64,000 nt of DNA from Parietichytrium sp. I65-24A (lineage: Eukaryota > Sar > Bigyra > Thraustochytrida > Thraustochytriidae), in the NCBI GenBank assembly GCA_012862575.1, contig BLSF01000055.1:238096-302095 (forward strand), given 5' to 3'. A model generated the notes under the pieces. That model did no database searches, was not told where the DNA came from, and was given only the letters and a program-made list of their open reading frames with translations. This document shows, piece after piece, positions 8,812-32,788 of this stretch. Both the position numbers and the translations under genes were made by a program. Numbering within the stretch: the first letter of the stretch is position 1; each line of letters starts with the position of its first letter.

Positions 8812-8876
8812 TGACTGTACATACGCATATGATCATAAAGACAAACAAAATGCAGAGGGAGCCAAATCCTCTACTT

Positions 8877-9995: not shown

Positions 9996-10907
9996 TGCGA
10001 CCGATTTCAACGGTTGTATAGTTTATGTTAAAGGGCGGGCTATGGACAGAGCAGGTGCGCGAGGACACCTTCGCCCCTTCCTTTTCCCGCACCCAACTTG
10101 TTTTTTTGCGCGACACTTTGAGCGCCTGCGGAACGCAATAAGGGTTCCGCAAACGGACCTCTTTCCTCTTTGCGGAACGCATTTCCCACCAAATGTAGCC
10201 GTTGCGCCTGTACAGACCTTACGGACTGTATTAACGGTACACTACCGATTAGTATGACCAGGTAGCAAGCACTCCTAGTCAGGTTGCCAGTACCCTGTCT
10301 ACCAAAAACGATTAGAACTAGCCTACGTTAACGGTGCATTCTAGGACGCAGTAACCCTCGGAGAACCGTACGTTACAAAACATACGCGTACCGTGTCCGC
10401 GGGGACACAGAGCACGAAACGGTCGCCTGTGGTGAACTAAGGAAAAGCATAACCCAGCCTACCGCGGCGCATACCAGCAGCAGCAGCAGCAGCAGAAGAA
10501 GAAGAAGAAGAAGAAGGAGCAAGGGAAAGAAAGAGAGCATAGAACAAGGGAGACAGACATCTTGGAACAAGAACAAAGGAAAGCGAAGAAGAACAAGAAC
10601 AAGAACAAGAAGAAAAGGGTTAACAAAAGCAGAAGGGACAAAGAACATAAGGAACGCTCGAGGAAAAGAAAAAAAAAGGAAAAGGAAAAGGAAAAAGAAC
10701 ACACAAACAGCCGGGAAGCAGAACGCAGAGGAACGCGAGATCTGGGTCGAGGTTGAGAAACGTATAAACTTTATAAACGTATAAAGGTATAAAGGTATAC
10801 ACGTAGGGCATGCCTCGCGCTGCGAGAGAGGACGCCATAATCGCAGCCGGGCCGGGGAGAAGGACTATAAAAAGAAAGTGAGGCGCAGCGGAGGCGCATG
10901 TGCGGAG
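9996..10907. other. Divergent intergenic region with purine-rich leader
   Basis: Holds (CAG)n then (AAG)n at about 10474-10517, and a long polypurine tract of AAGGAA/AAGAACAAG type to about 10710 on the sense strand of the K+ channel gene. No gene is visible. Short frames here only reflect the triplet repeats. Confidence 0.6.
10864..10873 (+). promoter_or_regulatory. TATA-like box of the K+ channel gene
   Basis: CTATAAAAAG lies 35 bp before the first ATG at 10908. If used, the leader would be very short. This is inferred from sequence alone. Confidence 0.4.
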
Positions 10908-12995
10908 ATGCAAGCGGTGAACGTGGATCGTGCAGTGAGGCAGGCGGCAGGCGCAAATTTGGTCAAGAACGATGTGGACGTGACGCCGTCTTTGGAGGCG
11001 CTAGAGGCTGGTGAGGTGGAAGAGTATCGTGCGCTGTTTGAGCAGATTGACCAGGACAGCAGCGGGGCCATCACGACGGAAGAGATTCACAGCAATCGGC
11101 GGCAGCTGCGGATACCTGCAGATTCGCTCATCTCAATCGAGGACTGGGTGGAGAAAGTCGATGTCGTTGGGGACGGGGAGATCCAGGTCGACGAGTTTTG
11201 CGTTTTCATGCACATCGCGCGGCACGGAGCCAATTCCAGCAAGCTGGTGTTTCGCCAAGGCAGGGAACCGAAGACCAAACTGCAGTTTGCCGAGGCAAGC
11301 TGGAGGAGGGTGATTTGGGTGACTTTGGAAGACCCCAACTCGTCCTCCTTCGCGCTGGGGCTGAGTGTGGTGTTGCTAACATTTATTGTCATATCGGTGG
11401 TGGCTTATTGCCTGGAGACCATTCCAGGATTTCAGACGAGAGCAAAGGCTCTTCTAGACACCACCGAGGTGGTCTGTATTACAGCGTTTTCGCTGGAATT
11501 TCTTCTGCGGTTAATCACCACGAACGACCTCAAGGGCTTCCTGATGAGTTGGCTGAACATTATTGACCTCGTCTCGCTGTTACCCTCTTATTTAGATTGG
11601 ATTCTGGTGAGTAGCTCGGATTCAAGCGTATTGCGTATTGCTCGTCTTGCGAGAGTCGCTCGGGTGTTCAAGCTTGGACGATACCTGGTGTGGCTCAAGC
11701 TCTACGGGAACGCTTTGCACAAGGCCAGGTTCCCACTTGGAATGGCAATGCTGGTGTGTTTCCTGAACGTTATCATCTTCGCGTCACTTGTATTCTATGC
11801 CGAGCGAGGCAAATTTGATGTGGAGCGACGTATGTACCTCGATGCAGATGGCATAGCGAGCCCTTTTCAAAGCATCTTCGACGGCTGCTATTGGGCAGTC
11901 ATCACAATCACGACTGTCGGGTATGGCGATAAAGTCCCTCAGACTCCTATGGGAAAGGTGGTCGGCATGGTCTGTCTCCTCACAGGGATTCTCCTGCTCG
12001 CAATTCCCATCTCTATTTTCAGTACTCACTTCCGCGTCGAGTACGCCGAGATGAAGAAGCAGGGCCAAAGGCAGCTCCAGAAAAAGCGCGAAGAGGAGCG
12101 CAATGCAGGTTCTATTTCCTCCCAACTTCTACAAAGCCCAGAAATGCGGGAGAAGCCTGCTTACCGCATGGCCGCAAATTCCATCAACTTGGCCTCCACT
12201 TCTCTTAAGAAACGTCGCACCTTTGTCGGACTGCCAACGTTTTTGTCAATCAAGAAGGGGGTACCTTTCGGGGAACGAGGTAAGAATAAAAGGAAAGTAA
12301 CGCCTTCAAGTCGCGGTCGCAACGAGAAGGACTTGGAGAAGGTGCGTGAGGACGACTTGGCCACAGATAGACGTAGAAGCTCTGCGTTCATGCAGCTGGA
12401 CACCGAAGTCAAGGAGAGGCAGAGGAACACAGAAATATCTCCGCGGGAAGCCATGCTGCAAGGGATTCTTGCTCTCGAAGCTTCCGCGGTCGAGAGTTTG
12501 GAGGTGCGGAATAATCTACGCCAAGACCTCCTCAAGACCCAAATGCAGCGCGTGGTAGACCTCCATCGAGAAAAGCTCTGGGTCGAGTTTCGTATCCTCG
12601 AGCGCAAATATCGAGAAAATATCATGGTTGAAGTCCTCGACAAGTATGCCGACTGGTTTTTGCGCTCGGATGATGATCTCGAGCGAGAAATTCTCAAAGC
12701 AGTGCTAAAGATCCAGGCTGTTTTCCGAGGAAATCTAACGCGATTTCTCATGTCCACCAAGCTCATCGCATGGGGCCGTCGCGCACGGACATCCATGCAA
12801 GACCCCACTTCGCGTGCCTTCCGAACCTCTCGCCATGAGGAAAAAGATCCCAGCGACGTCATGGAAGATCTCGAGGAACTGCATGATTTGCCACTGAAGA
12901 CCCTGAGTGCAATCAGCACTGGCTCAAAGTCTTCTGGCAAGCACAAGCTTCGATCCCCCTTGTCCATGCTCACCCGTCACATTTCGGGCAAGTGA
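10908..12995 (+). CDS. Voltage-gated K+ channel with N-terminal EF-hands and C-terminal IQ motif
   Basis: 695 residues from the ATG at 10908. Residues 25-110 hold an EF-hand pair. Loop 1 is DQDSSGAITTEE (D48 on) and loop 2 is DVVGDGEIQVDE, which lacks the usual third-position ligand. Six helices follow. S4 is LRIARLARVARVFKLGR, with a basic residue every third position (the voltage sensor). The pore helix leads to TVGYGD (336-341), the K+ selectivity filter, and S6 is VCLLTGILLLAIPISIF. The ~300-residue cytosolic tail is basic and contains KIQAVFRGNLTR (about 601-612), an IQ-type calmodulin site. The protein should sit in a membrane as a tetramer and pass K+ on depolarisation under Ca2+ control; that regulation is inferred from the domains. 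It has no intron. Confidence 0.93.
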   Translation: MQAVNVDRAVRQAAGANLVKNDVDVTPSLEALEAGEVEEYRALFEQIDQDSSGAITTEEIHSNRRQLRIPADSLISIEDWVEKVDVVGDGEIQVDEFCVFMHIARHGANSSKLVFRQGREPKTKLQFAEASWRRVIWVTLEDPNSSSFALGLSVVLLTFIVISVVAYCLETIPGFQTRAKALLDTTEVVCITAFSLEFLLRLITTNDLKGFLMSWLNIIDLVSLLPSYLDWILVSSSDSSVLRIARLARVARVFKLGRYLVWLKLYGNALHKARFPLGMAMLVCFLNVIIFASLVFYAERGKFDVERRMYLDADGIASPFQSIFDGCYWAVITITTVGYGDKVPQTPMGKVVGMVCLLTGILLLAIPISIFSTHFRVEYAEMKKQGQRQLQKKREEERNAGSISSQLLQSPEMREKPAYRMAANSINLASTSLKKRRTFVGLPTFLSIKKGVPFGERGKNKRKVTPSSRGRNEKDLEKVREDDLATDRRRSSAFMQLDTEVKERQRNTEISPREAMLQGILALEASAVESLEVRNNLRQDLLKTQMQRVVDLHREKLWVEFRILERKYRENIMVEVLDKYADWFLRSDDDLEREILKAVLKIQAVFRGNLTRFLMSTKLIAWGRRARTSMQDPTSRAFRTSRHEEKDPSDVMEDLEELHDLPLKTLSAISTGSKSSGKHKLRSPLSMLTRHISGK

Positions 12996-13561
12996 TCGAC
13001 CAGCTGTATATAGTAGAATGCCACGTTTTCTATTTCCAAGCATAGAAAGCGTGGCGTCCGCCTAAAAACAATATCATTCCTGTGCCATACTTGATCCCTT
13101 ACAGCACGCAGATCACGCACACCACATTGCGAAATTCTTTGTCCAGACGAAACAAAACACACCATAGCAAAATGACGTTTCGAAGCACATTAAGATCCTC
13201 CGTAATATAGTCCTCAGTACCAACCACTAGCCGTTACGCCACCTACCTCCTAGTCCCAATCATCCAAAACAATAATCCTTCATACTCTCACCACTCCTAG
13301 GCCATTCCGCCCCCTCCTACGCCAAGCCCTAAATCCCACAGCTTCAGCAGCGCTCCCGGAACGTTCCGCCGCGCGGGCCCGCAGTCCGCGGCCTAGTCCG
13401 TGGTCTACTCACGCTTATCCATCCATCCATCCATCCACCCACCAGGTCTTACTGAACTTTGGTCTGGTTTTTGGTCCGCCCACAGGTCCCACAGGCCCCA
13501 CAGGTCCCACACTTGGCGCTGCGGGACTTGGGGGGGAAAGGGTCCTCGCGCTGCGGGGTAA
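12996..13561. other. Intergenic, K+ channel 3' region and HIT gene upstream region
   Basis: Contains a strong hairpin just after the K+ channel stop (listed separately), an (ATCC)n run at about 13421-13443, and GGTCCCACA repeats at about 13483-13510. No gene is seen. Confidence 0.55.
13020..13055 (+). promoter_or_regulatory. 14-bp RNA hairpin in the K+ channel 3' UTR
   Basis: GCCACGTTTTCTAT (13020-13033) pairs with ATAGAAAGCGTGGC (13042-13055) across an 8-nt loop. All 14 pairs form, with one G-U wobble. It starts 25 nt after the stop codon. The function is unknown. Confidence 0.75.
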
Positions 13562-14572
13562 ATGGGTACGAGCTGGTGGCACGACGCGGAGGGTCCGCGG
13601 AGGCACGGGCGCGGACGTGCGCTGTGGCGGTCGCTGACGTCAGGGCTTGCGTTCGCACCGTCCTCGCGAGTGGCGCAGGAGCTGCCACTGGGATCCGGCG
13701 CGAGAGAGTCCGCGGCGTCGTGCGTGCTCCTGCACATTGCGCGCGGACACCACGACGATGCCAGGACCAAGTCGTCAGAGCTGCATGAGAATGCCAATGT
13801 CAATGCCAATGCAAATGCCAATGCCAATGCCAATGGGAATGGAATTGGGAATGGGTACAGACCTGGCGGTGGCGAGCGAGGGGACGAGGCTGAGGAGCTT
13901 GCCGGTGCGATAGAGGACGCCAAGGTCCGTGGCGAGATTGGTGGGGAAGGGAAGTCTTGCCAAGGCGCCGAGAATGGGGATCAAGGCGCTCTTTTTGTCC
14001 ACGGCTTAGCTCGGGACGATGCAAACGTGGATGTGGATGTGGATGCCAATGCCAATGCAAACGCGAATGCGAATGCCAATGCAAACGCGAATGCGAATGC
14101 CAATGCAAACGCGAATGCGAATGCAAACGCGAATGCGAATGCGAATGCGAATGCGAACGAGAATGCGAAGGCAGTCGGCGTCAGCAGCTCGAGGTACGTG
14201 GCCAAGTCGGCAAACGCGGTTGTGGTGCGGGACCTCAAGCCTGCGGCCCAAGTACACCTTCTGGTGCTGCCTCGGGAGCCTATACGGAGCGTGCTTTCGC
14301 TAACTGGCGACGACGCCGAGCTACTGGAGGAAATGATCGCTTTAGGCGAGCTTGCGATGCGCGAGGTGGAAGCTCCGGGGCCGGAGACGCGCTGGTCGTT
14401 CGGCTTTCACGTGCCCCCGATGACGTCCGAAGACCACCTTCACATGCATTGCCTGGCTGGGCGCTACTCTACGCGAGGCAAGTTCAAGTTTGCGTGGAAC
14501 AAGGCCTTTTACGTGGACGCAAGGGCTGTCTCCGTGCGTCTGCGCGCCGAGAACAACGGCGCAGGAAAGTAA
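13562..14572 (+). CDS. HIT-family (HINT3-like) nucleotide hydrolase with a large Asn-Ala insertion
   Basis: 336 residues. The HIT fold is split. The first strand is ASCVLLHIARG (about residues 52-62). A ~140-residue low-complexity insert follows, and the fold then resumes with SANAVVVRDLKPAAQVHLLVLPR. The active site is GFHVPPMTSEDHLHMHCLAG, with the histidine triad H292-x-H294-x-H296; H294 is the expected nucleophile. The GFHVPP...HLHMH pattern is that of HINT3/aprataxin-like HIT proteins, which hydrolyse adenylated lysine or nucleotide conjugates. The insert holds a shorter N-A/N-V run and a long one of over 20 Asn-Ala pairs. The N-terminal ~45 residues are Arg-rich and could be an organelle transit peptide, which is inference. 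Confidence 0.85.
   Translation: MGTSWWHDAEGPRRHGRGRALWRSLTSGLAFAPSSRVAQELPLGSGARESAASCVLLHIARGHHDDARTKSSELHENANVNANANANANANGNGIGNGYRPGGGERGDEAEELAGAIEDAKVRGEIGGEGKSCQGAENGDQGALFVHGLARDDANVDVDVDANANANANANANANANANANANANANANANANANANANENAKAVGVSSSRYVAKSANAVVVRDLKPAAQVHLLVLPREPIRSVLSLTGDDAELLEEMIALGELAMREVEAPGPETRWSFGFHVPPMTSEDHLHMHCLAGRYSTRGKFKFAWNKAFYVDARAVSVRLRAENNGAGK
14042..14168 (+). repeat. Hexanucleotide AAYGCN array coding for poly(Asn-Ala)
   Basis: Units AATGCC, AATGCA, AACGCG and AATGCG alternate and keep the reading frame. A related shorter array lies at about 13789-13853. Confidence 0.95.
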
Positions 14573-16039
14573 AGGCCTGGAGTGCACTCGACGTAGGACG
14601 TCGCGTGGAAAAGAATTCTCGTGGCGCCGTGTACGCATAAAATGACAATATCTCAATCTTTGTTAGCTCTCAAGTGTGTGTCTGCTGTTCTGGTTTTTGT
14701 AGATTTCAGAACAGAAAATTGGGATTGCACCTGTTGTAGGCGGGAAAACCAAGAACAAGCCGACGACAAGGGCATTTGTGGACCCAGAGAGCTCCCCAGC
14801 TCTCCTTCTTTTTTTTTAAGACTTGATAACACTCAACGAAGACACTTTCACAAATGTTTGGCCCGAATTCATATATTTCTTTTCGTGATCAATCCTATTT
14901 TTTTGTTTGTTTTCAAGCCAAAGCCAAAACAGGGAAATAAGTAAGAGGGCACATGGCTAGCCTCCCCAGCAACGAGAAAGCTGACCACTGACTTCATGAC
15001 CCTCGCATATTGACATTGTCAACAAAAGTCTTTCGCAGCTCTAACTTGAGACCTTCTTCCCCAAAATATGACTCGCTTTCTCTTCCTCCCTCGGACACCA
15101 CTCACAGCCTCCGACCGCCATTCATTCCTATCACACGCTCCCACACTGCTCCTGAAGCAAACAAAGCTCAACGCCATCATCGCACACGTATATCTTCTGT
15201 AAAGCTCGACCACTCCCGAAATAGGAAAGGGACGACCCGCGAGAGGCTAGGCGAAACACATTGCAGACGACGCCTACAGCGGATACAATCCTGATCGTCG
15301 CGTCTGCCACCCTTGTGTCTGACCCTCAATTGTGCTTTCAATCTCAGCTCGAAAGTTCAAGACAAGAGAGACGAGACGACAACGGGCTTTGGGAGGAACC
15401 TGAGAGCACGCCAACAACAGTCAAGAGGCAAAAATGCAAGTGCATCAAACATTGTCACAATATTGCGTAAACAACGTGCTCAAGACAAGAGGCACAGATA
15501 CATCTGCCCTGGTCTACTTTACGACAAAGGTACTCGCGAGGACGAAAAACCCGGTTCTCGACTCGCAAGCTGCCCTCACGTCAAATTGCAGTGGCAGAGT
15601 TCCAGGAATCTCCGTGCGACACATCAAGCAAGCGAGCGGCCATTCAACGGAAAAGAGAAAGCGAGACAGCAAAAGAAACGGCAAAAGTATGAGCGAGAGA
15701 AAAACTTCCGTCGCCATCACAACACCTTCACCACCCGACAACAACAAACCTCCAACCTTATACAGCTTCATCAGCGCAATACACTTCCAAGCTATGGAGC
15801 AACAAGTCAAGCCCCGAGTCAACAGAGCAAAAAGGAGACTCGTTTTCCTGCCACAGCTCTTGGTTAATAACCTCCCAATTTGTTTCAATAGCCATGCTCT
15901 GCTCAAGATATTGACCAAAGCACTGCGCAAAAAGACAATCACAACAGCCTCCAGAAAAGAATAGCAAATCGGAGAGAGAGTACTTCACGCTCCTCCAACG
16001 AGCTCCCTTTCTTCACTACCAAAAGAGGTTGCGGTTAAT
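14573..16039. other. Convergent intergenic region HIT / LARP
   Basis: 1.47 kb. Open frames up to 184 codons exist at 15313-15867, but their composition (Gln/Lys/Arg/Thr-rich, no domain, no supporting partner) does not look coding. Nothing else is recognised. Confidence 0.45.
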
Positions 16040-18822
16040 TTACTTTCTCTGAGGAGAAGTCGCAGAGCTGCTCGTTGAGCTGTTGCTGCTGCCGCTGTTC
16101 GCCGCTGGCTTCCTTGGTGGGCGGTTGGCTTTCCTCCAATTGCCCTCCAGACTCGACACCTTAGGGCCATTAGAGTCTTTACGAGTGCGTGAGAATGCGG
16201 CGCTGCCTTCGCGAGGACCGCGCTCGAGCTGGCCTCCGGAAACTTTTCCGAGGCTCTGAACTTTGTCTTGTGGTGCAGCAGATGGGCCGGAGGTTGGCGA
16301 GGATGGCGCAGTAGTTGGCGCGCTTTCCGAGCCTGGAGTGGAAGCAGTTTTAATAATATCAGCAAAACTCTTCTTCTGGCTTCCCCATGCGGCTCCACCC
16401 TGTTCGCTGTCAGTCTCCTTGGCAGCATCGCTCTCTCCCTCAGCCTCCACTTGCGCAGCGCTAGAGTTGTCGACTTCTGCCTTGTCCTCGCTCTGGGCAG
16501 CTGCAGCGGAAGCGGCATTTTCACTCTCTGCGACTGACTCTCCTACGACGTCCTCAACAATTTGTTTCACGTCACTAATTGTCTTGGCCGCAACTTCAGG
16601 CTTTTCCCAGCCGCGTTTTGGGCGGTCAGCGGCAGAGACTTGTGGTTGATGTGCAGACCCGGAAGCAGAGGATTTACGAGAGCCAGACTGCTCAGATTGT
16701 TCGGCACTCTTCTTTTCACCACCTTTGCCATTGCGGGAGGATTTGCCTTGCTGTGTGGCTTTTCCAGTAGCAGGGCTAGCTGCCTTCTTTGGAGTCTGGT
16801 TGGTAGGTTGTGGTGCAGGTGGAGCTGGGGCGGAAACAGGAGCAGGTGGGTTCTTGGCCACAGCTGCAGCCCAGCTACCGCCTGATGGAGCAGCTTGTTT
16901 TGGCGCATGAGTCTCAGTAGCCTCAGCGTTTGGCACGGCGGCGACATCCTCTTCTTCAATCTGTGTGGTTGTCAAGTAAAAACATATACTCAGAGCAAGT
17001 CAGTAACCCCATTCTTAACATCCAGCAATCAGTGTAATCACGGTTTGTGTGAGGGTATAGGGGAGAGAGAGAAAGGGAAAATCACTCGCAGCATCTTTTC
17101 CAGAGCTCTCCGTTCAAAGTGAAGAAATATATTTGAAGATTTTGATTCCACACAGTTTTTGCGTTCGGAAATCGACATGTCTTCATCGAGCTTTGGTACT
17201 GTTTGGTTCTGTCTAATTCTCCCTCCCTCCTGATGGCTCGCGTGCCAAACACACAACAAAGGTACACCGTAGCCACTCACCTTTACAGCTTGCTCTTCGT
17301 CTCCTTCGAGAGTCAATTTGCCCATGGATAGAGATGGAAAATCCTGTGGCTTGAAGTTTGGGGTCTTAACCTGTTGCTTCTTAGAAACCTGCTGGCCTTT
17401 CTTGGACTTGCGCTGTCCGCCAGTTGATCCAGTCTGGCTTCCAGAAATAGAGCCACTCTGGCGGTCGGACCTGCGTCCATTTGTAGCACCAGCGCCTCCA
17501 AATTTTTTCTGATCCTGACGTTGTCCCCGTTGTCCGCCCTGCGCCTGTAAAATTTGAAAACCAAAACAATCGAGTCAGGTGATGGCTCGACTTGGAAAAC
17601 GAAAACAACAACACCACCACCACCATCCAAATCGTTCGGCGGAATTGCAGCGCTGAGGAGTTTTGTCGTGTTTAAATCACATTCCATCATCAGAACGAAA
17701 GTACTTGTTCGTCATAGAAATCGGAGATTGTTCACATAAAGTATCATTTGGAATGATGCAAAATAAAACGACAAAAACATCACACGCATGCAACGCACTT
17801 GCTCCACCCCAGCCAGACCATCTCTTGTAACACGCAGTTCATTCCCGACAGAGGCAATAACAACTTACAGCATATTGAGCTCCAGGAGCATTTGGGGTCC
17901 AACCTGGTACGTTTGCCTGGTTGTAAAATCCGCCAGCAGGGAAAGCTCCGTACTGGCCGAATTGGGAAGCAGGAGGAACGACTGGGAATGCGCCAGGCAC
18001 CACAGCCGGCTGCTGAAGCGGACGGATGCTCTCGGACTTTAGGCGAGCCTTGACAGGCTGATTTTTAAGTTTCTTGCCAATGAGGTGGAGCAAGGCGTTT
18101 TTAGCGTCTTCCTCCGACCCCATGGTCACGAACCAGGTCTGGCCGACGTCGCTGCGCACCTGGATGAGTTCGTAGCCGGTATCTTCGAGAAGCTTCTTAA
18201 TGTCGTCCTCGGTAGTCTCCTCAGGTACATCGCGGAGGATGATAGTGGTTCGCGCAGGGCGCTTCCACGAGGTCTTGAGCATGGTCTGTTCCGCGTTGAG
18301 CTCGCAGATGGTGCTATCAGTGACGGCCCGTACGATGAGATCCAAGTCGCTGGTCAGGTTACGGACGCGGCGGAAGGCCGCAATAGTCTCGATCGGAATG
18401 AACCCGTCTGCGTTCATCTGCGACAGCATGTACGCGTCCTTATTCAAGTTCTGCTGGCTAAAGTAATACTCCACCTGCGCCTTGATCCGCGCCTGTAGAG
18501 TTGCTGGGTCAAGCTTCGACACGTCTACCATCTCCGCGCTGCTGTCGGACGAATACCCGCCGTGCTGGCTCATTCCGTCCGACGTTCTCTGCGCGTTATC
18601 TTCCTCCGACGACATCTCCTCCCACGGCTCGCTCGGCACCACCTCGACTCCTACTTGCTGCTCCTCTGTCTTGTACTGCGAGCTTACCATGCCCGCGACT
18701 TTGGATCCGCTCCTCTCCGCCGATCCGCAGTCCGACGAATCCGATCCCAGGCGCACGCACTCCAACGACTTTGCGATTTCTTCTTGTTGCTCTTCTTGCC
18801 CTGCGCTAGCGCGTGCTGCCAT
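16040..18822 (-). CDS. La-related protein, LARP4-type, three exons
   Basis: Exons 18822-17869, 17544-17281 and 16960-16040 (minus), all phase 0, give 712 residues. Residues ~105-190 are a La-type winged helix: ARIKAQVEYYFSQQNLNKD, then LSQMNADGFIPIETIAAFRRVRNLT. An RRM follows at once (~205-275), with RTTIILRDVPEETTEDDI and WFVTMGSEEDAKNALLHL. This pairing and wording fit LARP4/4B rather than genuine La or LARP1. Exon 2 has NFKPQDFPSLS. The C-terminal third is disordered, Ala/Ser/Pro-rich, with GGSWAAAVAKN and KKSFADIIKTAS short motifs. LARP4 proteins bind poly(A) mRNA and poly(A)-binding protein in the cytoplasm and stabilise transcripts. Confidence 0.9.
16961..17280 (-). other. LARP intron 2 (320 nt)
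   Basis: The donor is GTGAGT (17280-17275, minus strand) and the acceptor CACACAG ends at 16961, with a TACTGAC branch-like motif upstream of it. Phase 0. Confidence 0.82.
17545..17868 (-). other. LARP intron 1 (324 nt)
   Basis: The donor is GTAAGT (17868-17863, minus strand) and the acceptor TTTTACAG ends at 17545. A CTGAC motif lies about 25 nt before it. Phase 0. Confidence 0.85.
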
Positions 18823-21203
18823 TTATTGACCAATCCACGCAAGCCACTCGTCCGAGCTCCAAACGAACGCGAAGCAGATGGATGGATGGATGGATGGAGA
18901 CAGAGGTGATTCAAAAGACGGATGAATGGATGAATCGATGGATGGATGAACGAATGGAATGAATGGACAGAAAACCACAAGCTGCTCCAACCAACCCAAC
19001 GCACGCATCGACGATCAAAACAAGAGCAAAGGCACAAGCAAAAGCAAAATCAAAANGCCCGACGACTTCCGCCCGCCGCTTCCTCCCACCTCTCTCTCTC
19101 TCTCTCTCGCACGCACGCTCTCCCTCTCTCTCTCTCTCTTTCTTTCTCTCTGCCCTTCCGTCTCTGTCTCTGTCTCTGTCTCCACCGATTCAGCCGCCTT
19201 AGGTTCTTGGGCAGCTACGCGAGGCGCGCGATTCCTAAGGGCGCCGCAGGGTCCCACGGTTATCGGTAGCGGGCCGCCTCTCCCGGGCCTACCGCCGGCG
19301 GGGGGCTAGGGGAAGGGGTAGGCGAGCAGTAGGGAGAGTGGATCGCGCGGGCGATGGGAGTGCCCTGCCGGAGGCTGGGTGGCTGTGGGTTGCCTTACGT
19401 TTGAAGGGGGGGTAGGTCGCGCCGGCGACCGCTTTGGATGGAGAGTGAGTTTTCGGTGAGTGACTAGGGTGGAGGGTAAGGGTTCTTTAAGACGAGGAGG
19501 ATACGGCTGACGTAGTGCGGAGCGCCAGTTTAAACTGTAGTAGTTTGAGTTGAATAGTTATCGAATAACGATTTAGGTAGCACTCAAGCACTCTTATAAA
19601 CACGTATCCAATCGCATAGATGGGTAAAAGTTAAATAAGGATAGATAGGACGTGCAGGACCATCCATTCGTCAGATGCATCCATTCATTTTCAGTACTCA
19701 CCCCCTACCCTGATCCTTAGCAGGCGGTACTAACCCCACGCTCACATTTTAAACTAAGCGCCGCGAACACTAGGGAAGCTCGACTGTTCCTAGTAGAACC
19801 AATCTATCTCGCAGTGGGAGTCACCGCGGGGAGGGTGCCGAAGCAGGGCTTTCGCATCCATTCAATAGCGGGGTTCGTTTTGTTCCTTGCGCGAAGAGCT
19901 CCTTCCTTTGGCCCCTCGTGAATGAGTGCGCGACCATTCGTTTAAACGAATGTATGTGCAGAGTGTATGGAGATGTATGGAGCACAAAGAGCGTCGAAGA
20001 CGATGGCGTCAAGGAATGGAAAGGCAAAAGACAAAAGAGTTATAGTTTTTCGATTGATCAGTTTCAATTGAAAGCTTTCACGTCCATTCACTTTGAGCAG
20101 CAGCCGGGAATGCTAAACGCCTTGTTTCGTGGTCAATGAACACCAAAGGTTTCCGAAGCATCAACAGCATCAATGTGGTGCTGATTGATTGATTGATTGA
20201 TTGATTGATTGCAATAAGATTGATTCTAACTTTCACGCTGTTGATAACAATCGCAGCCTTGTGGTTTTTGCTGCTCTGCTCCTTGCGGTTTGCTCTTCGC
20301 TGGTGCAATCAGTGCAATCCCAAAGGGTGTAATTTGCGGAGACCAAGTTGCAGCCATTCGAGTCGCAGTTGCTTTTGTTTTGGCAGATCCACCCATCCAG
20401 TCCATCCACACTTTCATTCATCCCACTCTGGAAAATAACCTAAACGACCAGGAATGACCGCGAAGGAATGCGAATGACCACAAACGCCAGTGGAGTTCAC
20501 GGCGTTGCGTCTTGGCCATTCCTTCGGCTGCTGTAAGCTCTCTGTAGAATTTGGGAAACTATGAGCACTTGAGCACATTGGCACATGAGCTATCATGAGC
20601 TACATGAGCTACATGCGCACATGAGGGCATCTCGCTCAACTGCTCCCATTAGCTAGTGCAGCTCATGCTCTTCATGCTCCGAGCGCGGAGAGCTCGCGTC
20701 AAGACTATCAAGACTATCAAGACGGCGATACTCTCGATGGCGAGAGGCGAATCTGACAGAGTACTCGTACTATACTTGCAATCTGAATTCGGAATTCTGT
20801 AAACGAACAACCGAGTGGCCATCTCTAGTCAAGCTATCGACGAAAGTCACGATCCGTTACAAAGGAACAAGCTTGTCGTTCTTCGATCAAAATCAATCAA
20901 TCAATCATTCAATCAATCAATCAATCAATCGAAACATTCCTTTTCGCGCTCGCGCTTCTTTCCCTCTTCACCGTCAATGACGAATCTCCGACTTGGTGCA
21001 AAGTGGACCTGTGCAAGAACCCACTCGCCCTGCCAACTCCTACCTCCCTCTCCAGCGTTAATCATAGTCGCAAGAACCCGCTCGACGAGAACCGGAGGAA
21101 AGAGATCCAAATTCCAGTTTTCAAACTATCTTGCCAACTTGTCCAAGTTGAAAACAATGTGAAAAAGCTGTGCTTGCGAGTACCGGTAACGGCTAATTGT
21201 GGC
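18823..21203. other. Divergent intergenic region LARP / TBCK
   Basis: 2.4 kb with no convincing gene. It holds (ATGG)n at about 18880-18960, a CT-rich block at 19085-19185 (purine-rich on the LARP coding strand), an ambiguous base at 19056, (GATT)n at 20183-20211 and 20889-20931, and CATGAGCTA repeats at about 20586-20612. A CCAAT sequence lies at 18829-18833, about 7-11 bp before the LARP start on its template side. Confidence 0.5.
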
Positions 21204-23960
21204 ATGCTGCGGGTACACCGCGCGCCCGTGCGCGCAGAGGCGTCCGCAAGTAGTGGGGAACCTAGTCTGCGGCGCTGGGTGTGCGGTTCACCGGTGGAGA
21301 TCTGTGGCGATCTGGGGTCCATCACGCACAGGCTGGCCCATGTGCGCGACATTTCGAGCACATGCGCACACCTCGCTGCGTACCTGGATCCATGGCGCGC
21401 GCCAGGAGCGGAGATAACGCTGGACGCGGACGCCGAACGTGATGGCGCCGTTTACCTGCGCACGGCGCTGGGTGAGGGGTGGCAGATTGCTTGTTGGGAC
21501 GCGAAATGTGATCATGAATGTGAATGTACTACTAAATGCGAGTCGGATCGTGGATGCGAATGTAATCTGAATGCGGAGTCGCAGTCGGACCCACCGAAGC
21601 TGGCTGAGCTGCAAAGAAGGGCGAAACGCGTCGCCCTGGGAGTTCTTAAAGCGCTTCGCACATTGCACGCGAATGGATTGTGCCATGGAACTCTTGGTCC
21701 ACAAGATGTGCGCGAGACTTGCATGGGAAATAGAAAGGTTGTGCAGGTGTGCGGATACGCGATGGGGTTTCTCACTGCCAAGTCTGACTCATGCACAAAA
21801 GACTATCTGCGTTTTGCGTCACCAGAGTATGTTGTGATCGGCGCGTCGCATGACTCGCACTTTCGACCGGCGTCGGACGTCTGGGCGCTAGGAATGATAA
21901 TTGCTGAGCTAGTGGGGCTACAACGCCTTGGAAACGACAAGCAATTGGACCCCGTGGGGCACCTATTGCAAGTGTCGGAGCTGGCCTGTGTAGACGAGAG
22001 TGGGCTCCCAGTATCGTATTTCGATCATCTGTGGGAGACTGCAACAGATAAGCCAAGGCTGGAACCCCTTTTGCGGGACTTTCTAACCCGCTGTTTGTAT
22101 CTCAATCCGAGCAATAGGGACCCGGCAGCGAGCTTATTGAACCACGATTGGCTTGTTTCCGCTGAGAAGGAGACCACGATGGTTGATCGCCCCTCGGCCA
22201 AGGTTTCTAGCTACGAATTTGTCTCTTCTTCGGCCAACCGCAATTTCCAATTGATGGCTGCTTTTCCATTGCGCGAGCTCTCGGCCAAAGCCGTGTTGCA
22301 GAAACGGCAATGCCCTTTTATTGAGCACAAGGATGTTTCTGTCAAGGACGAACTTCAACAAGCAATAGACTCTGTGCGGGCGGCCAGACGTGCAGCAACT
22401 CCGCCTGGCTCGCCGTCCGCCTCCGCGAGGGGCAAAGAGGGCGCTGAGAGCTCAACTGCAAAACGCTCATCACCAAAGAAGAGCACCAAAGGGAAAAAGC
22501 CGGAGTCCACTGAAGGTCTGAACACAACTGCCACCTTGATCGCGGCTATGCTGCTCTCCGGCGGCGCGAAAGCCTCTGCGGCAGCTCGGGACAAGGACAA
22601 TGCCACTCAAAGCGGCCAAAGTGATGGGGAGCCCGAGGAAGAGATAGAGGATGTGCTGGACGCCTTTGAGCTGGTTTGGAGAGCGCAAGACGCGATGTAC
22701 GACTCGAATCAAGAAGTGTTGCGCGACCTTATGCGACAGGCTTCCTTGGAGAGGCTGCCTTCAGAGTCGCTCAGTCAAGAGTTTCGCGCGGCTGCTTGGA
22801 CCTGCCTTCTCGGTGTTCCTCTGGAGCGAGGATCCCGAGGTGGCGCTTCTGACCCTTTCACTGGAGCTCCGCTTCGGCTGCTTGCCCCTCTGCGAACGAA
22901 AATGCAACTGTACTACGATCAACTCACCATTCCTCACGACGTTGACAGGCAGCTCGAGCAAGATGTTCCTAGATGTCACCAGTACCATGTAGTTATCAAA
23001 AGCGCGGTCTCTCGGGCAAAACTTGCGCGCATCCTGAAAGCCTGGTGTTTGAAGAACAAAGGCTGCGTGTACTGGCAGGGTCTGGACAGTGTCGCGGCTA
23101 CAATTCTCTCCGTTTATCCTGGCGAAGAGTCACTCGCTTTCGCCGTGCTCAACAAACTTGTGGATCTCTGCATGCCAGGAATGTTCAGCGCCACTGAAAA
23201 CGCAAATTCTCGGCTTCTGCACTTGAGGCTAGAGATGCTTGAACAAACGTTGACATTTTTGGACCCTGAGCTTAGCGCGCACTTACGATCCATTGGAGTC
23301 AAGCCTGATCTCTTCGCCATTCCCTGGCTCCTCACAATGTTCGCGCATGTTTTTCCGCTCGACATGGTGGTTATCATCTGGGACTTCATTTTATGTGAGT
23401 CGCCTGAAAAGAGAGGTACGAGACTAATTTTGCTCGCGGTCTCTGTGCTGATACAACTTCGCACTGCACTCCTTCGTTTCCACGACTTTGGCCCGTGCGT
23501 CGCTCTCCTGACGCGGCTTCCAGTCAATTTGAACAGACTGATTCCTCAGTCTATTCGCCTTGCAGCACTTGCAGAAGATCTTACCCCGGCATTTGTACAT
23601 TTGTCCTGGAGTTCCCAGCAAAATGGAGAGTTGAGCCAAGTTGCCACCTTTGCGCTAGCCCATCCGGTTCCGATTCTCCCTGCCAGCGAACTTGAGCGCT
23701 TGCTTGACCGTGCTGTGGTGGTGGGCGACGCAACACTGCTTCCAGGGACCCCGGCGGATCTGCTTGCCATCGTGCCCTACAACGAAACGGATGCTGCACG
23801 AACCGTGAATGCTATAGAGCAAGCTTTGGTCGGGAACAGGTTTTTGATTGTGCTGATGTGGGAGCGCAAAGAGATCCTTGACCAGACGTTAGAGGCCTTG
23901 TTGCAGGCTCCTGGACATCCTCAGGTGTGTGTTCTGGAACGGCCAGCGACCAATTCCTAG
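21204..23960 (+). CDS. TBCK: TBCK: pseudokinase-TBC (Rab GAP) protein
   Basis: 918 residues from the first ATG at 21204; the open frame extends upstream without an ATG. The N-terminal ~340 residues are kinase-like but inactive. The catalytic loop reads LCHGTLGPQDV, DFG is replaced around VCGYAMGFL, and the APE segment reads FASPEYVV. A disordered linker with KKSTKGKK follows. The TBC domain (~500-760) has EQDVPRCHQYH, which keeps the arginine finger, and YWQGLDS, which keeps the glutamine finger. It then has LRSIGVKPDLFAIPWLLTMFAHVFPLD. The last ~90 residues match the position of the rhodanese domain of TBCK but the active-site loop is not recognisable. TBCK is linked to Rab GTPase control, endosomal mRNA transport (FERRY complex) and mTOR signalling in animals. 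Confidence 0.92.
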   Translation: MLRVHRAPVRAEASASSGEPSLRRWVCGSPVEICGDLGSITHRLAHVRDISSTCAHLAAYLDPWRAPGAEITLDADAERDGAVYLRTALGEGWQIACWDAKCDHECECTTKCESDRGCECNLNAESQSDPPKLAELQRRAKRVALGVLKALRTLHANGLCHGTLGPQDVRETCMGNRKVVQVCGYAMGFLTAKSDSCTKDYLRFASPEYVVIGASHDSHFRPASDVWALGMIIAELVGLQRLGNDKQLDPVGHLLQVSELACVDESGLPVSYFDHLWETATDKPRLEPLLRDFLTRCLYLNPSNRDPAASLLNHDWLVSAEKETTMVDRPSAKVSSYEFVSSSANRNFQLMAAFPLRELSAKAVLQKRQCPFIEHKDVSVKDELQQAIDSVRAARRAATPPGSPSASARGKEGAESSTAKRSSPKKSTKGKKPESTEGLNTTATLIAAMLLSGGAKASAAARDKDNATQSGQSDGEPEEEIEDVLDAFELVWRAQDAMYDSNQEVLRDLMRQASLERLPSESLSQEFRAAAWTCLLGVPLERGSRGGASDPFTGAPLRLLAPLRTKMQLYYDQLTIPHDVDRQLEQDVPRCHQYHVVIKSAVSRAKLARILKAWCLKNKGCVYWQGLDSVAATILSVYPGEESLAFAVLNKLVDLCMPGMFSATENANSRLLHLRLEMLEQTLTFLDPELSAHLRSIGVKPDLFAIPWLLTMFAHVFPLDMVVIIWDFILCESPEKRGTRLILLAVSVLIQLRTALLRFHDFGPCVALLTRLPVNLNRLIPQSIRLAALAEDLTPAFVHLSWSSQQNGELSQVATFALAHPVPILPASELERLLDRAVVVGDATLLPGTPADLLAIVPYNETDAARTVNAIEQALVGNRFLIVLMWERKEILDQTLEALLQAPGHPQVCVLERPATNS

Positions 23961-27601: not shown

Positions 27602-28989
27602 TGCGTAATTCTCGAATCGGTTTCATGGATCGGTCCCTTTCTTTAATTCTCAGCGCTTGTAACGCCCCTTCGATTTCCCTCTGGCAAACAATCGGCCAAA
27701 TCTCTTTGAGGCGATTCTTTGAGATCTTAGAGTTCTTTCAGAGGCAAACACCCCCAAGTTGATGTTGACGAACCCTCAATGGGCTCGGGCGCGCGCTTTG
27801 CAGGCCGCATTAGAAGTAATGATGTGTTTGCACGAGAGCCACAGCATTGTTTCGCCATACGATCGCACTTTTGACAAAACCCCAAAGTTGGCGCGAGACA
27901 GCTATGCCGCCATGCAGACCGCGTGCCATGCTCCCCTTCATTTACCAGACACTATTCTCCAAACGATTCAACCTCTATGGCGCCATTCCATGTTCGTGTA
28001 ATGTCAAAATACCTGGCTGTGAGGGATGGGGGGGGGAGAAGCTGCGGCTCGCTCTTGTCACCTGAATCCGCCTCTGCCCCAAAAACTACTCAAAAAGCCT
28101 GCGCCACACCCAATTGCCATCATCCAAACTATCGGCCAACAGCGCACAATCTCCATGTACTCGTTCAAAGTGCCCATGCTCTCGAAAAAGGCTTTTCCAG
28201 CTCAAACTTTGGCAACACACGCCCATCTTTTCCACTTTTTTTTCACCATTCTATTACACACAGCTTGCCCAAATCCCTCTGCCAGCTGCTAACCAAAATC
28301 TCGAGCCTTACCCATATCCGTAACTGCGCTCTACCCACACACGGTACACACCCTCCTATCCCGATCCATAAACACTATTAATTAAACGCCGTTAATGTTT
28401 TGCACTAAGGATGTAAACAGTTACGTAACGTCTATCGAGTGCTACCTCATCCCGGTGAACGTTTTGTTACTGCACCTCTTCTCTCTCAGAGGCCCTAACC
28501 GCGCGATGATGCGTTTCTATCAGCTTCTATCGCCTCAAATAGCGAGTTACTTTGTTCATTTTATGTTCTGAATGAACACTGAATAGAAATGATTCCAAAA
28601 TGAGCGCCAACTTTTCGACGATGCCATCAGGAGAGGGTGTCTAGTCGCCGTTGTCGAAAAGCTAGCTAGTCACAATGAGTTGGGCGAGGGAACTGACAGC
28701 GAGCGATCCATACTGGCAGTACTCTTATCGCTGCTAGTAGCTAGCTGTTAGGGCGCTAACTAAAACATGAACGATGCAAATGAAAATTGCGAAAAGTAAG
28801 TCGGAGACCAAACACCAAATGCAAGAGCGAACGCCGAACGCAGTCTTTTGAGAGGAATAGGTGTGGACAGTTGAGACGCTGACTGATTTGAATTCATTGA
28901 TTGACTCATTGATTCATTGACTGATCGCTGGATCGATTGATTGACTGAGTGATTGACTGATTGATTGATTGCCTTGGAGCGCGAAAAGG
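27602..28989. other. Intergenic PILS / SOD-repeat gene
   Basis: 1.4 kb with no convincing gene; the longest frame (152 codons near 27923-28381) has no family signature. (GATT)n-type repeats occupy about 28890-28971, immediately before the next start. Confidence 0.5.
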
Positions 28990-31900
28990 ATGGGCGAACA
29001 GGCGGTGGACGTGGATGATTTGGAAAGTATCTCGGAGCTGGACGACCTCGAAAACGCAAATGGCGCAGCTCGACTCGGAGACGCTGATGGTATTGCGCAG
29101 GAGGAGGCCGCGGAACGCTGGAACGCCGCGACCTGGCTTCGAAGCAAGAGAGGGAAAATGGGAGTTGCTGGTGCCCTGGGATGCGCCGCTTTGATCGGCA
29201 TCGTTGCAGCAGCAACGTCCTCATCGTCAGGCTCCTCTGGCGACGCAGGGGACGCCGATGGCGGGAACGGGGATGGAGACGGCACTGGCACTGGTGCCGC
29301 ACTTGCATACGAGTTCCCAGTCGAGGACTTTGGCGTGGCCGCGGAGATTGCACAATACCCTGGCGGCCCGCTGAGCTTTCCCGAAGGCCAAGTGACTCTT
29401 GGTGCCGACAACACACTTTCATGGAGTTTGACCAGTCTGGACGCTGACTCGAGCGGTGGCATTCACATCCACGTAGGAGAGTCGTGCGACACTGCTGGTG
29501 GCCACTGGTTTGATGGCGCAGATGATGGCTGGACGCAGGTTAAATGGACCAGCGATGCGTCGGGGGGAGCGGTCGGCTCTGTCGATGTAGACGAAGTTGT
29601 TGGCGGTAAGAGCTTCCAGGACAATGTGGCGCACGCTGTAGTCGTGCATGGTCCGGACGGAACGAGGGTGGGATGCGGTGTTTTGAGTGCCCTCAGCTCT
29701 GACCATGTCAGCGTCAAGGCCAAGCTCGTCCGCTACCCTGGCATCGACGATACTGTCGAGTCCGCGAGTGGATATGCATTTCTCGATGAGAACAACATTC
29801 TGTCTTGGAATCTGCAGCACCTGGAGCCAAATGGCTCTGGAGGAATTCACATTCATCAAGGGTACACTTGCCAGACTGCAGAAGGACACTTTTACAAAAC
29901 GGGGGAGAGCGATCCTTGGGGCGTCGTCAAATACACGGCGTCCGCCAGCGGCGACAGCTCCGGTTCCTATGATCTTGGCACTTTAACAGGTGTATATGAC
30001 TTTAGCGCCAACGTCAATCACGCTGTCGTTGTCCATGCACCAGACGGCACAAGGGTGAGCTGCGGAGTTTTGATCCCATATACTCGCATAGTCGAGGACG
30101 AAAACATTTCTGAAGACGACGACAACTACTACAGTGTTGGTGGGAGTTTTGATCAGTACCCAGGAGGCCCGGAAAGCCACCCAGACGGCAAGGTATGGCT
30201 GGACTCGAACAATGTTCTCTCGTGGTCCTTGGCAAATTTGGAACCCTCAGTCCAAGGCGGAATTCACATACACTCTGGACGCTCCTGCGTGGATCCAGGA
30301 CCGCATCACTGGGACCAGACCGCTGGTCCTGACCAGTGGGGTTCAGTCAAGTACTCGAGCGATGCCCAAGGCAAGAGCTGGGGCAAGCTCGACGTGGACA
30401 CATTGCCATCCTCCTTCACGTTTGTCGCAAATTTGGACCACGTCGTAGTTATTCATGACTCCACTGGGGCCCGCGTGGCCTGTGCGGAGCTAAACGCTCG
30501 TGAGGACTACGGAAGCAAAGCCATTTTGGCGCAGTATCCAGGGGGTCCTGCCGAGTTTCCTCTGGGCCGTATTGTATTGGATAGCGCCAATGTGATGACG
30601 TTTCAATTGACAGGGCTCGAGCCGGAAGCAACAGGAGGAATTCACATTCATCAGGGCTCTACATGCGACTTTTCTCAAGGCCATCATTATGTTGCGTCTG
30701 GGTCCGACGGTTGGGCGGCAACGGCCTGGATGTCCAACCAATACGGCGTAGCGCGAGGCATGATCAACGTTAACAACGTGGAGAGCGCTTACTCTTTTCC
30801 ATTCAATGTGGGAAGGACTGTCGTTGTCCATGACTCACTTGGACGGCGCGTGGCCTGTGGAGTTCTGAAGCCATTTGTGTTTTATGCGAACAGCGAGGAG
30901 GACGGCATTCCAGACCCAACCTACGAATTCGAGGTGAAGGGGTCATTTCAGCGATTTCCAGGATACAACGGGACCGTGCCGCGAGGAAAAGTAACCCTCG
31001 ATTCAGAGAACGTGTTGAGCTTTGAGATGTCACGATTGACTGGAGATGCCACTGGCGGGATTCACATTCACGCGGGAACTTCGTGCGACAGCGCGCTCGG
31101 CCACCACTTCTCTGGTGTCACGGATGGTTGGACGTCGGTTAAATGGTCGAGCTCCAAGAATGGCGAGGCGTCAGGAACGATAGAAGTTGATTCCGTCACA
31201 GGAGCATACCCCTTTGCCTCGAATCTTGACCATGTCGTGGTCGTTCATGATGAGACTGGAGCCAAAGCTGCTTGTGCGGCTTTGAAAAGCGGCACGGAGT
31301 TTGGCGTGGTTGGGACAATGGGAGCATACCCAGGCAGTGCATCAGCAATTTCGCCTACTGGCAAGGTTTATCTCTCGCGGAGAAACACCATGGCTTGGTA
31401 CTTGGAAGATCTTGAAGCAAGCGCCCAAGGTGGTATTCACATTCACGCCGGTGTTGGCAAAGATGCTTGTCAGAACAGCGAAGGACACTGGTACGAAGGC
31501 GCAGCTGACCCGTGGCCCAGCGTCCAGTATTCCAGTACCACGAAGGGTCTCGCTCGCGGAGTCACATCTCTCTCGACTCTTACCGGTGTGAAGTCCTTTG
31601 CAGACAATGTTTACCACGCAGTAGTTGTCCACGCACAGAATGGGACACGAATTGGCTGTGCTGTATTGGACACCTTCGCGGAGGACATCGAGGAAGAGAC
31701 GGACTCCGACACCGATGATGGAGACGAAGCCGACGATGGCGATGTCCTAGACTCTGGTGATGCATTCCTTGTCCACGCAGATTTGGAGCCATACCCAGGC
31801 TCTACAAGCCCTGGTGAAGCCTACGCTGGGCGTGTGACCCTAAACAACGACAACGAGATGGTTTTCGTGCTCAGCAACTTGGAGCCTTTCTCCTCGGGAG

Positions 31901-32643
31901 GCATTCACATCCACGAGGGTCAGACTTGCGACACTGCAGGTGGGCATTGGTTCTTTGGAGAGAACGATCCTTGGAAAGTGATCTCTTGGGTTTCTGACGG
32001 AGACGGTAAGACACATGGAACAGTTGGCCTCAACTCAATCAGCGGAGTGTATCCATTTGCAGCGAATCTCGATCACGCTGTGGTTGTCCATGCTCCAAAT
32101 GGAACGAGAATTGCGTGCGGTGTTTTAGGCTCCAAAGACAGAGTCTATGGCGTGGAAGGCGAGCTTGATGCATACCCGCTCCTCGCGGATGATGTCGAGT
32201 TCCCTCGCGGTAGTGTGTTCCTCAACAATGAGAACTATGTTCGCTTTGATCTGTGGGATATGGAGCCCAGAACCTCCTACGGCCTCCACATTCACGCTGG
32301 CAAAACGTGCGAAAACGCTCAGGGACACTGGTTCAAAGATGGAGAGACTGACTTTTGGGCCCAAGTCAAAACAACGAGTAACGAGGACGGAGACGCATTT
32401 GGATATCTGCGCCTCGCGGAATTCGCAGGGGCGTACGAGTTCGAAAAGAATGTCAATCACGCTGTCGTTGTGCACGGTCCGGACGGAACTCGGATCGCAT
32501 GTGCTACCCTTAGCTCGTTCAGGCTTGGACCCATCTCTGTGTTCGAGGATGACGACGACAGTGATGGCGACGGCAATGACGATGATGATGCCCAGGACGA
32601 GTACGATGGTTCAAGCTCCACCGAAGACGATGCTGATAACTAA
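28990..32643 (+). CDS. Membrane-anchored protein with eight tandem copper-only SOD-like domains
   Basis: 1217 residues from the ATG at 28990 (the frame before it has only TTG). An acidic cytosolic segment (1-55) and one hydrophobic helix (about 57-76) suggest a signal anchor. Eight domains of ~125 residues follow. Each has G-I-H-I-H-x-G-x-x-C, then G-H-W/H-F/Y, then H-A-V-V-V-H-x-x-(D)G-x-R-x-x-C. These match the SOD1 copper ligands (His46, 48, 63, 120), the disulfide pair (Cys57, 146) and Arg143. The zinc ligands and electrostatic loop are missing. The HIH motifs begin at residues 158, 286, 425, 551, 691, 816, 972 and 1099. Domain 5 has Lys in place of Arg143; domain 4 reads NVGRTVVVH. The tail is acidic. 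Superoxide dismutation at the cell surface is inferred from fungal and animal Cu-only relatives. Confidence 0.85.
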   Translation: MGEQAVDVDDLESISELDDLENANGAARLGDADGIAQEEAAERWNAATWLRSKRGKMGVAGALGCAALIGIVAAATSSSSGSSGDAGDADGGNGDGDGTGTGAALAYEFPVEDFGVAAEIAQYPGGPLSFPEGQVTLGADNTLSWSLTSLDADSSGGIHIHVGESCDTAGGHWFDGADDGWTQVKWTSDASGGAVGSVDVDEVVGGKSFQDNVAHAVVVHGPDGTRVGCGVLSALSSDHVSVKAKLVRYPGIDDTVESASGYAFLDENNILSWNLQHLEPNGSGGIHIHQGYTCQTAEGHFYKTGESDPWGVVKYTASASGDSSGSYDLGTLTGVYDFSANVNHAVVVHAPDGTRVSCGVLIPYTRIVEDENISEDDDNYYSVGGSFDQYPGGPESHPDGKVWLDSNNVLSWSLANLEPSVQGGIHIHSGRSCVDPGPHHWDQTAGPDQWGSVKYSSDAQGKSWGKLDVDTLPSSFTFVANLDHVVVIHDSTGARVACAELNAREDYGSKAILAQYPGGPAEFPLGRIVLDSANVMTFQLTGLEPEATGGIHIHQGSTCDFSQGHHYVASGSDGWAATAWMSNQYGVARGMINVNNVESAYSFPFNVGRTVVVHDSLGRRVACGVLKPFVFYANSEEDGIPDPTYEFEVKGSFQRFPGYNGTVPRGKVTLDSENVLSFEMSRLTGDATGGIHIHAGTSCDSALGHHFSGVTDGWTSVKWSSSKNGEASGTIEVDSVTGAYPFASNLDHVVVVHDETGAKAACAALKSGTEFGVVGTMGAYPGSASAISPTGKVYLSRRNTMAWYLEDLEASAQGGIHIHAGVGKDACQNSEGHWYEGAADPWPSVQYSSTTKGLARGVTSLSTLTGVKSFADNVYHAVVVHAQNGTRIGCAVLDTFAEDIEEETDSDTDDGDEADDGDVLDSGDAFLVHADLEPYPGSTSPGEAYAGRVTLNNDNEMVFVLSNLEPFSSGGIHIHEGQTCDTAGGHWFFGENDPWKVISWVSDGDGKTHGTVGLNSISGVYPFAANLDHAVVVHAPNGTRIACGVLGSKDRVYGVEGELDAYPLLADDVEFPRGSVFLNNENYVRFDLWDMEPRTSYGLHIHAGKTCENAQGHWFKDGETDFWAQVKTTSNEDGDAFGYLRLAEFAGAYEFEKNVNHAVVVHGPDGTRIACATLSSFRLGPISVFEDDDDSDGDGNDDDDAQDEYDGSSSTEDDADN

Positions 32644-32788
32644 GTTATGCGCGGAAGTTCGCTTTCAGCACTCTTTCTGCTGATTATTTATGAGAACGAT
32701 TCTGATTTTGCAAAAGTGAAAAATAAAAAAAGTTTCCCTTAATAATTATATACTGTTCACATTGGTAAGCTTGGGAGATGCGAGAACA
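32644..32788. other. Short convergent 3' region
   Basis: 145 bp between two stop codons. It contains AAAAATAAAAAA (about 32719-32730), a possible poly(A) signal for the SOD-repeat gene. Confidence 0.5.

Follow-up and report, generated by a model that had tools for sequence, protein, structure and literature searches.

Eight tandem copper-only superoxide dismutase-like domains on a predicted membrane-anchored protein of a thraustochytrid

Tandem copper-only superoxide dismutases (SODs) with up to twelve repeats are already known, as is the single-domain form in oomycetes. In the available text of the paper that treats them, copper-only SOD repeat proteins (CSRPs) have 4–12 repeats, occur in animals and Capsaspora, are placed in the opisthokonts, and have N-terminal repeats without copper sites in every case examined (PMC13017621). 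A survey of reactive oxygen species genes notes that CSRPs had been found in animals only (PMC7730656), and three- and four-domain forms are described in an oyster paper, as far as its excerpt goes (PMC12784942). Among the open-licence papers listed as literature matches, no title or opening of an abstract tells of such tandem repeats in a stramenopile or alga; the main text of a thraustochytrid proteome paper, in the portion at hand, makes no mention of superoxide or copper (PMC12221091). Here we describe a gene with eight SOD-like units in a stretch of 64,000 nucleotides (the window) of contig BLSF01000055.1 of Parietichytrium sp. I65-24A, and compare it with these systems.

The gene and its repeat array

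We consider it fairly probable that the gene encodes a type II membrane protein displaying eight copper-only SOD domains that dismute superoxide at the cell surface. The gene, its repeats, the conservation of the ligands, the fold of units 1 and 2 and the kinship to Sod_Cu were computed directly. The coding sequence is a single frame with no stop inside 28990–32643, and its parts are as follows (window positions).

28990..32643, + strand: whole coding sequence, 1217 amino acids in one open frame, ATG at 28990
28990..29157, + strand: N-terminal 56 residues, predicted to lie in the cytosol, D/E/L-rich in one stretch and with basic residues clustered beside the membrane segment; a similar stretch occurs in locus L017
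29158..29214, + strand: hydrophobic segment, residues 57–75, predicted type II signal anchor (Kyte-Doolittle)
29215..29307, + strand: stalk rich in Gly, Asp and Ser
29308..29694, + strand: SOD-like unit 1 (ligand motifs, model, fold search)
29695..30081, + strand: SOD-like unit 2 (model, fold search)
30082..30114, + strand: acidic linker between putative pairs 1-2 and 3-4
30115..30501, + strand: SOD-like unit 3 (ligand motifs)
30502..30876, + strand: SOD-like unit 4 (ligand motifs)
30877..30912, + strand: linker between putative pairs 3-4 and 5-6
30913..31293, + strand: SOD-like unit 5, with Lys at the catalytic Arg143 position (ligand motifs, alignment)
31294..31677, + strand: SOD-like unit 6 (ligand motifs)
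31678..31749, + strand: long acidic linker between putative pairs 5-6 and 7-8
31750..32136, + strand: SOD-like unit 7 (ligand motifs)
32137..32523, + strand: SOD-like unit 8 (ligand motifs)
32524..32643, + strand: acidic C-terminal tail and stop, without a hydrophobic glycosylphosphatidylinositol (GPI)-type end
32723..32728, + strand: AATAAA, possible polyadenylation signal (read from the sequence)

A preliminary description of this DNA had proposed eight units, each with HIH, GH and VVxH motifs and two cysteines, and all eight were recovered in the 1217-residue frame. The HIHxG motifs begin at residues 159, 287, 426, 552, 692, 817, 973 and 1100, and each is followed, in the same order in 8/8 units, by a cysteine, GH (GPH in unit 3), VVxH and a second cysteine. 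The first cysteine lies seven residues past the first histidine of HIH, or ten in unit 6. The units are 125–129 residues long (n = 8) and share pairwise identities of 33–47%. At the DNA level the similarity between them is limited to short diverged patches of 32–62 nt. Together, these two observations indicate that the array is old and not an assembly stutter. The spacing from one HIH to the next, which the preliminary description did not report, alternates between short and long (128, 139, 126, 140, 125, 156 and 127 residues) and suggests four pairs joined by acidic linkers. The linkers between pairs measure 11, 12 and 24 residues; these lengths vary with the unit boundaries chosen.

Directly 5′ of the start codon is a run of the tetranucleotide ATTG (window 28892–28971), likely in the 5′ leader, which was the only result of Tandem Repeats Finder. 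The large Brr2-like, TPPII and Prp19-like genes of the window consist of one long frame each.

Copper site, second shell and fold

In profile alignments to solved SODs (best five), the histidines of HIH, GH and VVxH align on the copper ligands of SOD1. In SOD1 numbering these ligands are His46, His48, His63 and His120, and the two cysteines align on Cys57 and Cys146. The four-histidine set is complete in 8/8 units, in the copper-site order first proposed, and the disulfide-type cysteine pair is present by sequence in every unit. The 23 invariant columns (of 127) include all six of these positions; the chance of this is about 2e-5. This estimate is partly circular, since it was by these motifs that the units were first marked. 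The columns of SOD1 His71, His80 and Asp83 are gapped or substituted in the units in the alignments shown, and the stretch from VVxH to the second cysteine carries no insert, that is, no electrostatic loop or extended loop VII. The proposed loss of the zinc ligands and the electrostatic loop is thus borne out. Clustering of the histidines in space would follow only from the fold match and the alignment to the SOD1 ligands.

Around the copper site, an aspartate (D73 of unit 1) is invariant in 8/8 units near the former zinc site and is the one possible remnant of that site; a tryptophan (W75 of unit 1) is also invariant. A gapless count back from a conserved glycine (the G93 equivalent) puts D73 at the place of fungal E110; HMMER alignments place it elsewhere. 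In addition, a histidine (H109 of unit 1, window 29632–29634) occurs five residues before the last copper ligand in seven of the eight units and is replaced by Arg in unit 4; it stands where SOD1 has Arg115.

Arg143 takes part in catalysis and not in metal binding; its place is held by Arg in 7/8 units and by Lys in unit 5. This residue bears on a different reading, in which the protein binds or collects copper at the surface, its eight sites holding or buffering the metal while dismutation is incidental. The number of sites per chain, the very acidic ectodomain and linkers (net −109) and the altered second shell, with no Asp at the Asp83 position, are all in line with such a store. However, because the catalytic arginine is kept in seven units, superoxide turnover is favoured, and we regard a copper store as unlikely.

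The SOD β-barrel fold that had been proposed is supported for units 1 and 2 by the structure model and the fold search. A unit profile run against solved structures found SODs at best at E 2.1e-4, and PF00080 (Sod_Cu) was listed for 7/8 single units at E up to 10, the best at 1.1e-4; unit 1 scored 17.1 bits, under the cut-off of 28.9. Kinship to Sod_Cu is also transitive through two paralogues, P0002 and P0003. Judged by sequence, the units have significant kinship to the Sod_Cu superfamily. SOD5 chains were matched weakly by the unit profile, near the second cysteine only (E 0.57–0.64), and SOD5 was absent among the 50 fold-search rows listed (VIA), which is not evidence against kinship. NCBIfam gave no match for the whole protein and, by unit, one chance-level match (1/8 units, E 0.075).

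Anchor, relatives and host

Residues 57–75 have a Kyte-Doolittle value of 2.13 over 19 residues, compared with 0.98 for the best segment elsewhere in the protein. A stretch of charge +4 precedes this segment and the acidic ectodomain follows it. This arrangement is consistent with a type II signal anchor and an external position of the repeats. The signal anchor proposed earlier is supported by this single strong hydrophobic segment. An inner start at Met57 with a signal peptide is less likely, because the 56 codons before it form an open frame and are similar to the N-terminal part of L017 (C21:39500-43500, frame 1483-2595). L017 has a similar N-terminus and anchor and a different, Vps62-like ectodomain, the latter below the Pfam cut-off. 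The N-terminal score against L017 was reached by 1/2000 shuffles, in a comparison chosen after the fact. A third similar anchor (E 0.015) was found in L041 (C50:299900-303900), whose ectodomain is apple/lectin-like by eye, and the motif W-x-x-(S/T)-(K/R)-(K/R) is common to these N-terminal anchors. They possibly represent a shared surface-anchor module of the organism, joined to unrelated ectodomains.

We searched the genome (42.5 Mb, 172 contigs) for relatives. Two neighbouring genes, P0002 and P0003 (C27:492500-502400, L014; frames 1446-2969 and 5689-7083), encode three SOD-like domains each, of the same type as those of the eight-unit protein and with identities of 34–39%. Both have a signal peptide-like start, a Thr/Pro stalk and a hydrophobic GPI-type C-terminal end. 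By eye, the copper ligands are complete in 4/6 of their domains and absent, in the alignment, from P0002 domains 1 and 3. This loss, together with the long repeat array on a membrane anchor, could speak for a surface protein with a structural or adhesive task, in which the SOD barrel is a reused building block; such a role has been suggested for CSRPs without copper and for dominin of the oyster (PMC13017621). A purely structural role does not need ligands that are invariant in 8/8 units, and we hold this explanation to be quite improbable.

PF00080 had 11 matches in the genome among the best-scored candidates, the eight-unit protein not included. By eye, they contain a normal-looking Cu/Zn SOD (two frames on C2) and a CCS-like protein with a heavy-metal-type domain (C64). 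A SOD1-like protein on C48 (L019 948-1412), likewise read by eye, has other residues in place of its second cysteine and of the copper ligands of HIH and VVxH; it keeps the zinc-site His71 and His80 and has Ser for Asp83. By eye, three weak genome matches of P0003 (C22, C9 and C67) appeared to have no relation to SOD.

A tree of 17 domains comprised the eight units, the six C27 domains and three SODs; the CCS-like C64 domain was aligned and kept outside the tree, and neither the C50 SOD nor the second C6 domain was used. A branch with 99/99 support parts the units and C27 domains from the three SODs. The bootstrap had not settled, and 12/14 inner branches are open. The eight units were not recovered as one group (two label changes), the middle domains of P0002 and P0003 falling among them with weak support, and the tree gave no support for an odd-odd or even-even grouping, that is, for pair-by-pair duplication. 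In phage and plasmid records, tblastn with the whole protein gave no match at E 0.01. In viral contigs, profile A1 (eight units) and profile A3 gave 22 and 66 pattern-matched stretches, and in prokaryote genome contigs unit 7 and A3 gave 235 and 39, none of them confirmed. Compared with these phage, plasmid, viral and prokaryote collections, the domain family was seen in this genome only.

The preliminary description had called the protein probably algal. This label is unsupported, because the chlorophyll a/b-binding family gave 0 matches at E 0.001 across the whole genome. The host is single-celled and apparently non-photosynthetic. As further observations on the genome, C40 (L053, 222000-229500) carries a type I fatty acid synthase whose beta and alpha parts are fused in a 4180-residue frame with two acyl carrier protein stretches (2499 residues read). 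We take this fused layout to be that of Schizochytrium and thraustochytrids, which the literature listing did not confirm. It makes a labyrinthulomycete-like stramenopile fairly probable as host. C66, at about 8562–22499, holds a 5583-residue frame in which four or more stretches resemble ketosynthases; this large gene is polyketide synthase-like. The PfaA profile gave 13 matches in the genome, none above the cut-off, and a scan of six contig ends, partly made up of N, gave no Rfam match.

Proposed function and comparison with known systems

If the protein dismutes superoxide at the cell surface, its eight domains would stand in four pairs on the outside of the plasma membrane or cell covering, and each would bind one copper through four histidines. 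We infer this topology, the loading of copper from outside, catalysis and the biological role. The open copper site, lacking both zinc and an electrostatic loop, would dismute superoxide close to the cell surface, and the array may damp or shape extracellular superoxide, for example that from the cell's own NADPH-oxidase/ferric-reductase-type enzymes.

Several observations weigh against this reading. No unit has Asp at the place of Asp83, the fungal D113, which in the accessible text orients a copper ligand in fungal copper-only SODs (PMC13017621). The folds of units 3–8 rest on their 33–47% identity to the other units, that is, on homology to units 1 and 2. In the unit-profile search of solved structures, a lipocalin, azurin, an antibody chain and trypsin appeared from E 0.07 upward, so that only the best rows of that search count. 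A Pfam scan of the whole protein at E up to 1 made no Sod_Cu call, and phmmer of the whole protein against the PDB gave no SOD match. The model of the unit 1-2 pair reached a predicted template modelling score (pTM) of only 0.54, which leaves a pseudo-dimer of these units unsupported. The ectodomain charge of −109 could repel superoxide. As to the source of superoxide, NAD_binding_6 cannot tell NADPH oxidases from ferric reductases. Because the Sod_Cu model misses the protein in a whole-protein scan, similar protist proteins may be under-annotated.

That same silent Pfam scan, and the viral CHRD models that ranked 3, 4 and 6 when viral folds were searched (E 0.0017–0.0096), could point to a look-alike, of CHRD type or another, that shares the HIH motif and is not SOD-derived. 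This idea is already largely refuted and very improbable; CHRD (PF07452) had no match in the genome at E 0.001, nor any in the protein when matches up to E 1 were admitted.

As for origin, we suggest only tentatively, and with some doubt, that the repeat protein is not of opisthokont origin and emerged in a stramenopile-like protist, either independently of the animal CSRPs or long before them. It would then carry eight working copper sites as four covalent pseudo-dimers, a type II anchor also used by other surface proteins of the lineage, and a second shell with Asp for the fungal Glu that dispenses with the D113 Asp. A counterpart outside the opisthokonts, if true, would imply that the tandem design is much older or was invented more than once. 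The array offers eight homologous copper sites, all intact, as a natural set in which to ask why such domains are strung together. It belongs to a lineage for which the listed literature matches name no such protein, and to a specialist it would be noteworthy and not shocking.

The fungal and oomycete copper-only SODs of the SOD5 type resemble the present units, in the text available, in their open copper site, missing zinc ligands, short loop VII and extracellular location, but they are single-domain proteins of about 25 kDa with an E110/D113 pair (PMC13017621). DR_0644 of the Deinococcus cell envelope, as far as its excerpt describes it, is a copper-only SOD in a cell-surface assembly and in this respect resembles the predicted surface array; it differs in being bacterial and in forming the trimeric collar of an S-layer complex, with one copper site per monomer (PMC9823218).

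The likeness to CSRPs noted in the preliminary description is supported by the domain count, the ligands, the cysteines and the loss of the zinc site. CSRPs have at least four tandem SOD-like domains on one chain and four copper histidines in most repeats; the present chain has eight such domains, with the four histidines in 8/8. Like the CSRPs in the available description, it combines tandem SOD-fold units, copper ligands and disulfide cysteines with absence of the zinc site and loop VII and a predicted extracellular location (PMC13017621). Unlike in CSRPs, all eight units have intact copper ligands. CSRP linkers are typically 5–9 residues long, and a GPI anchor or secretion is a common trait, not strictly required; many, not all, CSRPs keep the E110/D113 signature (PMC13017621, same portion). 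By contrast, in place of short linkers and secretion or a GPI anchor, the present protein has spacing that alternates, linkers that are acidic and a predicted signal anchor at its N-terminus. As to the signature, no unit has Asp at the D113 place, and by the gapless count the invariant D73 may occupy that of E110. The array most likely works as the animal CSRPs are thought to, with its own anchor, probable pairing and its own second-shell chemistry.
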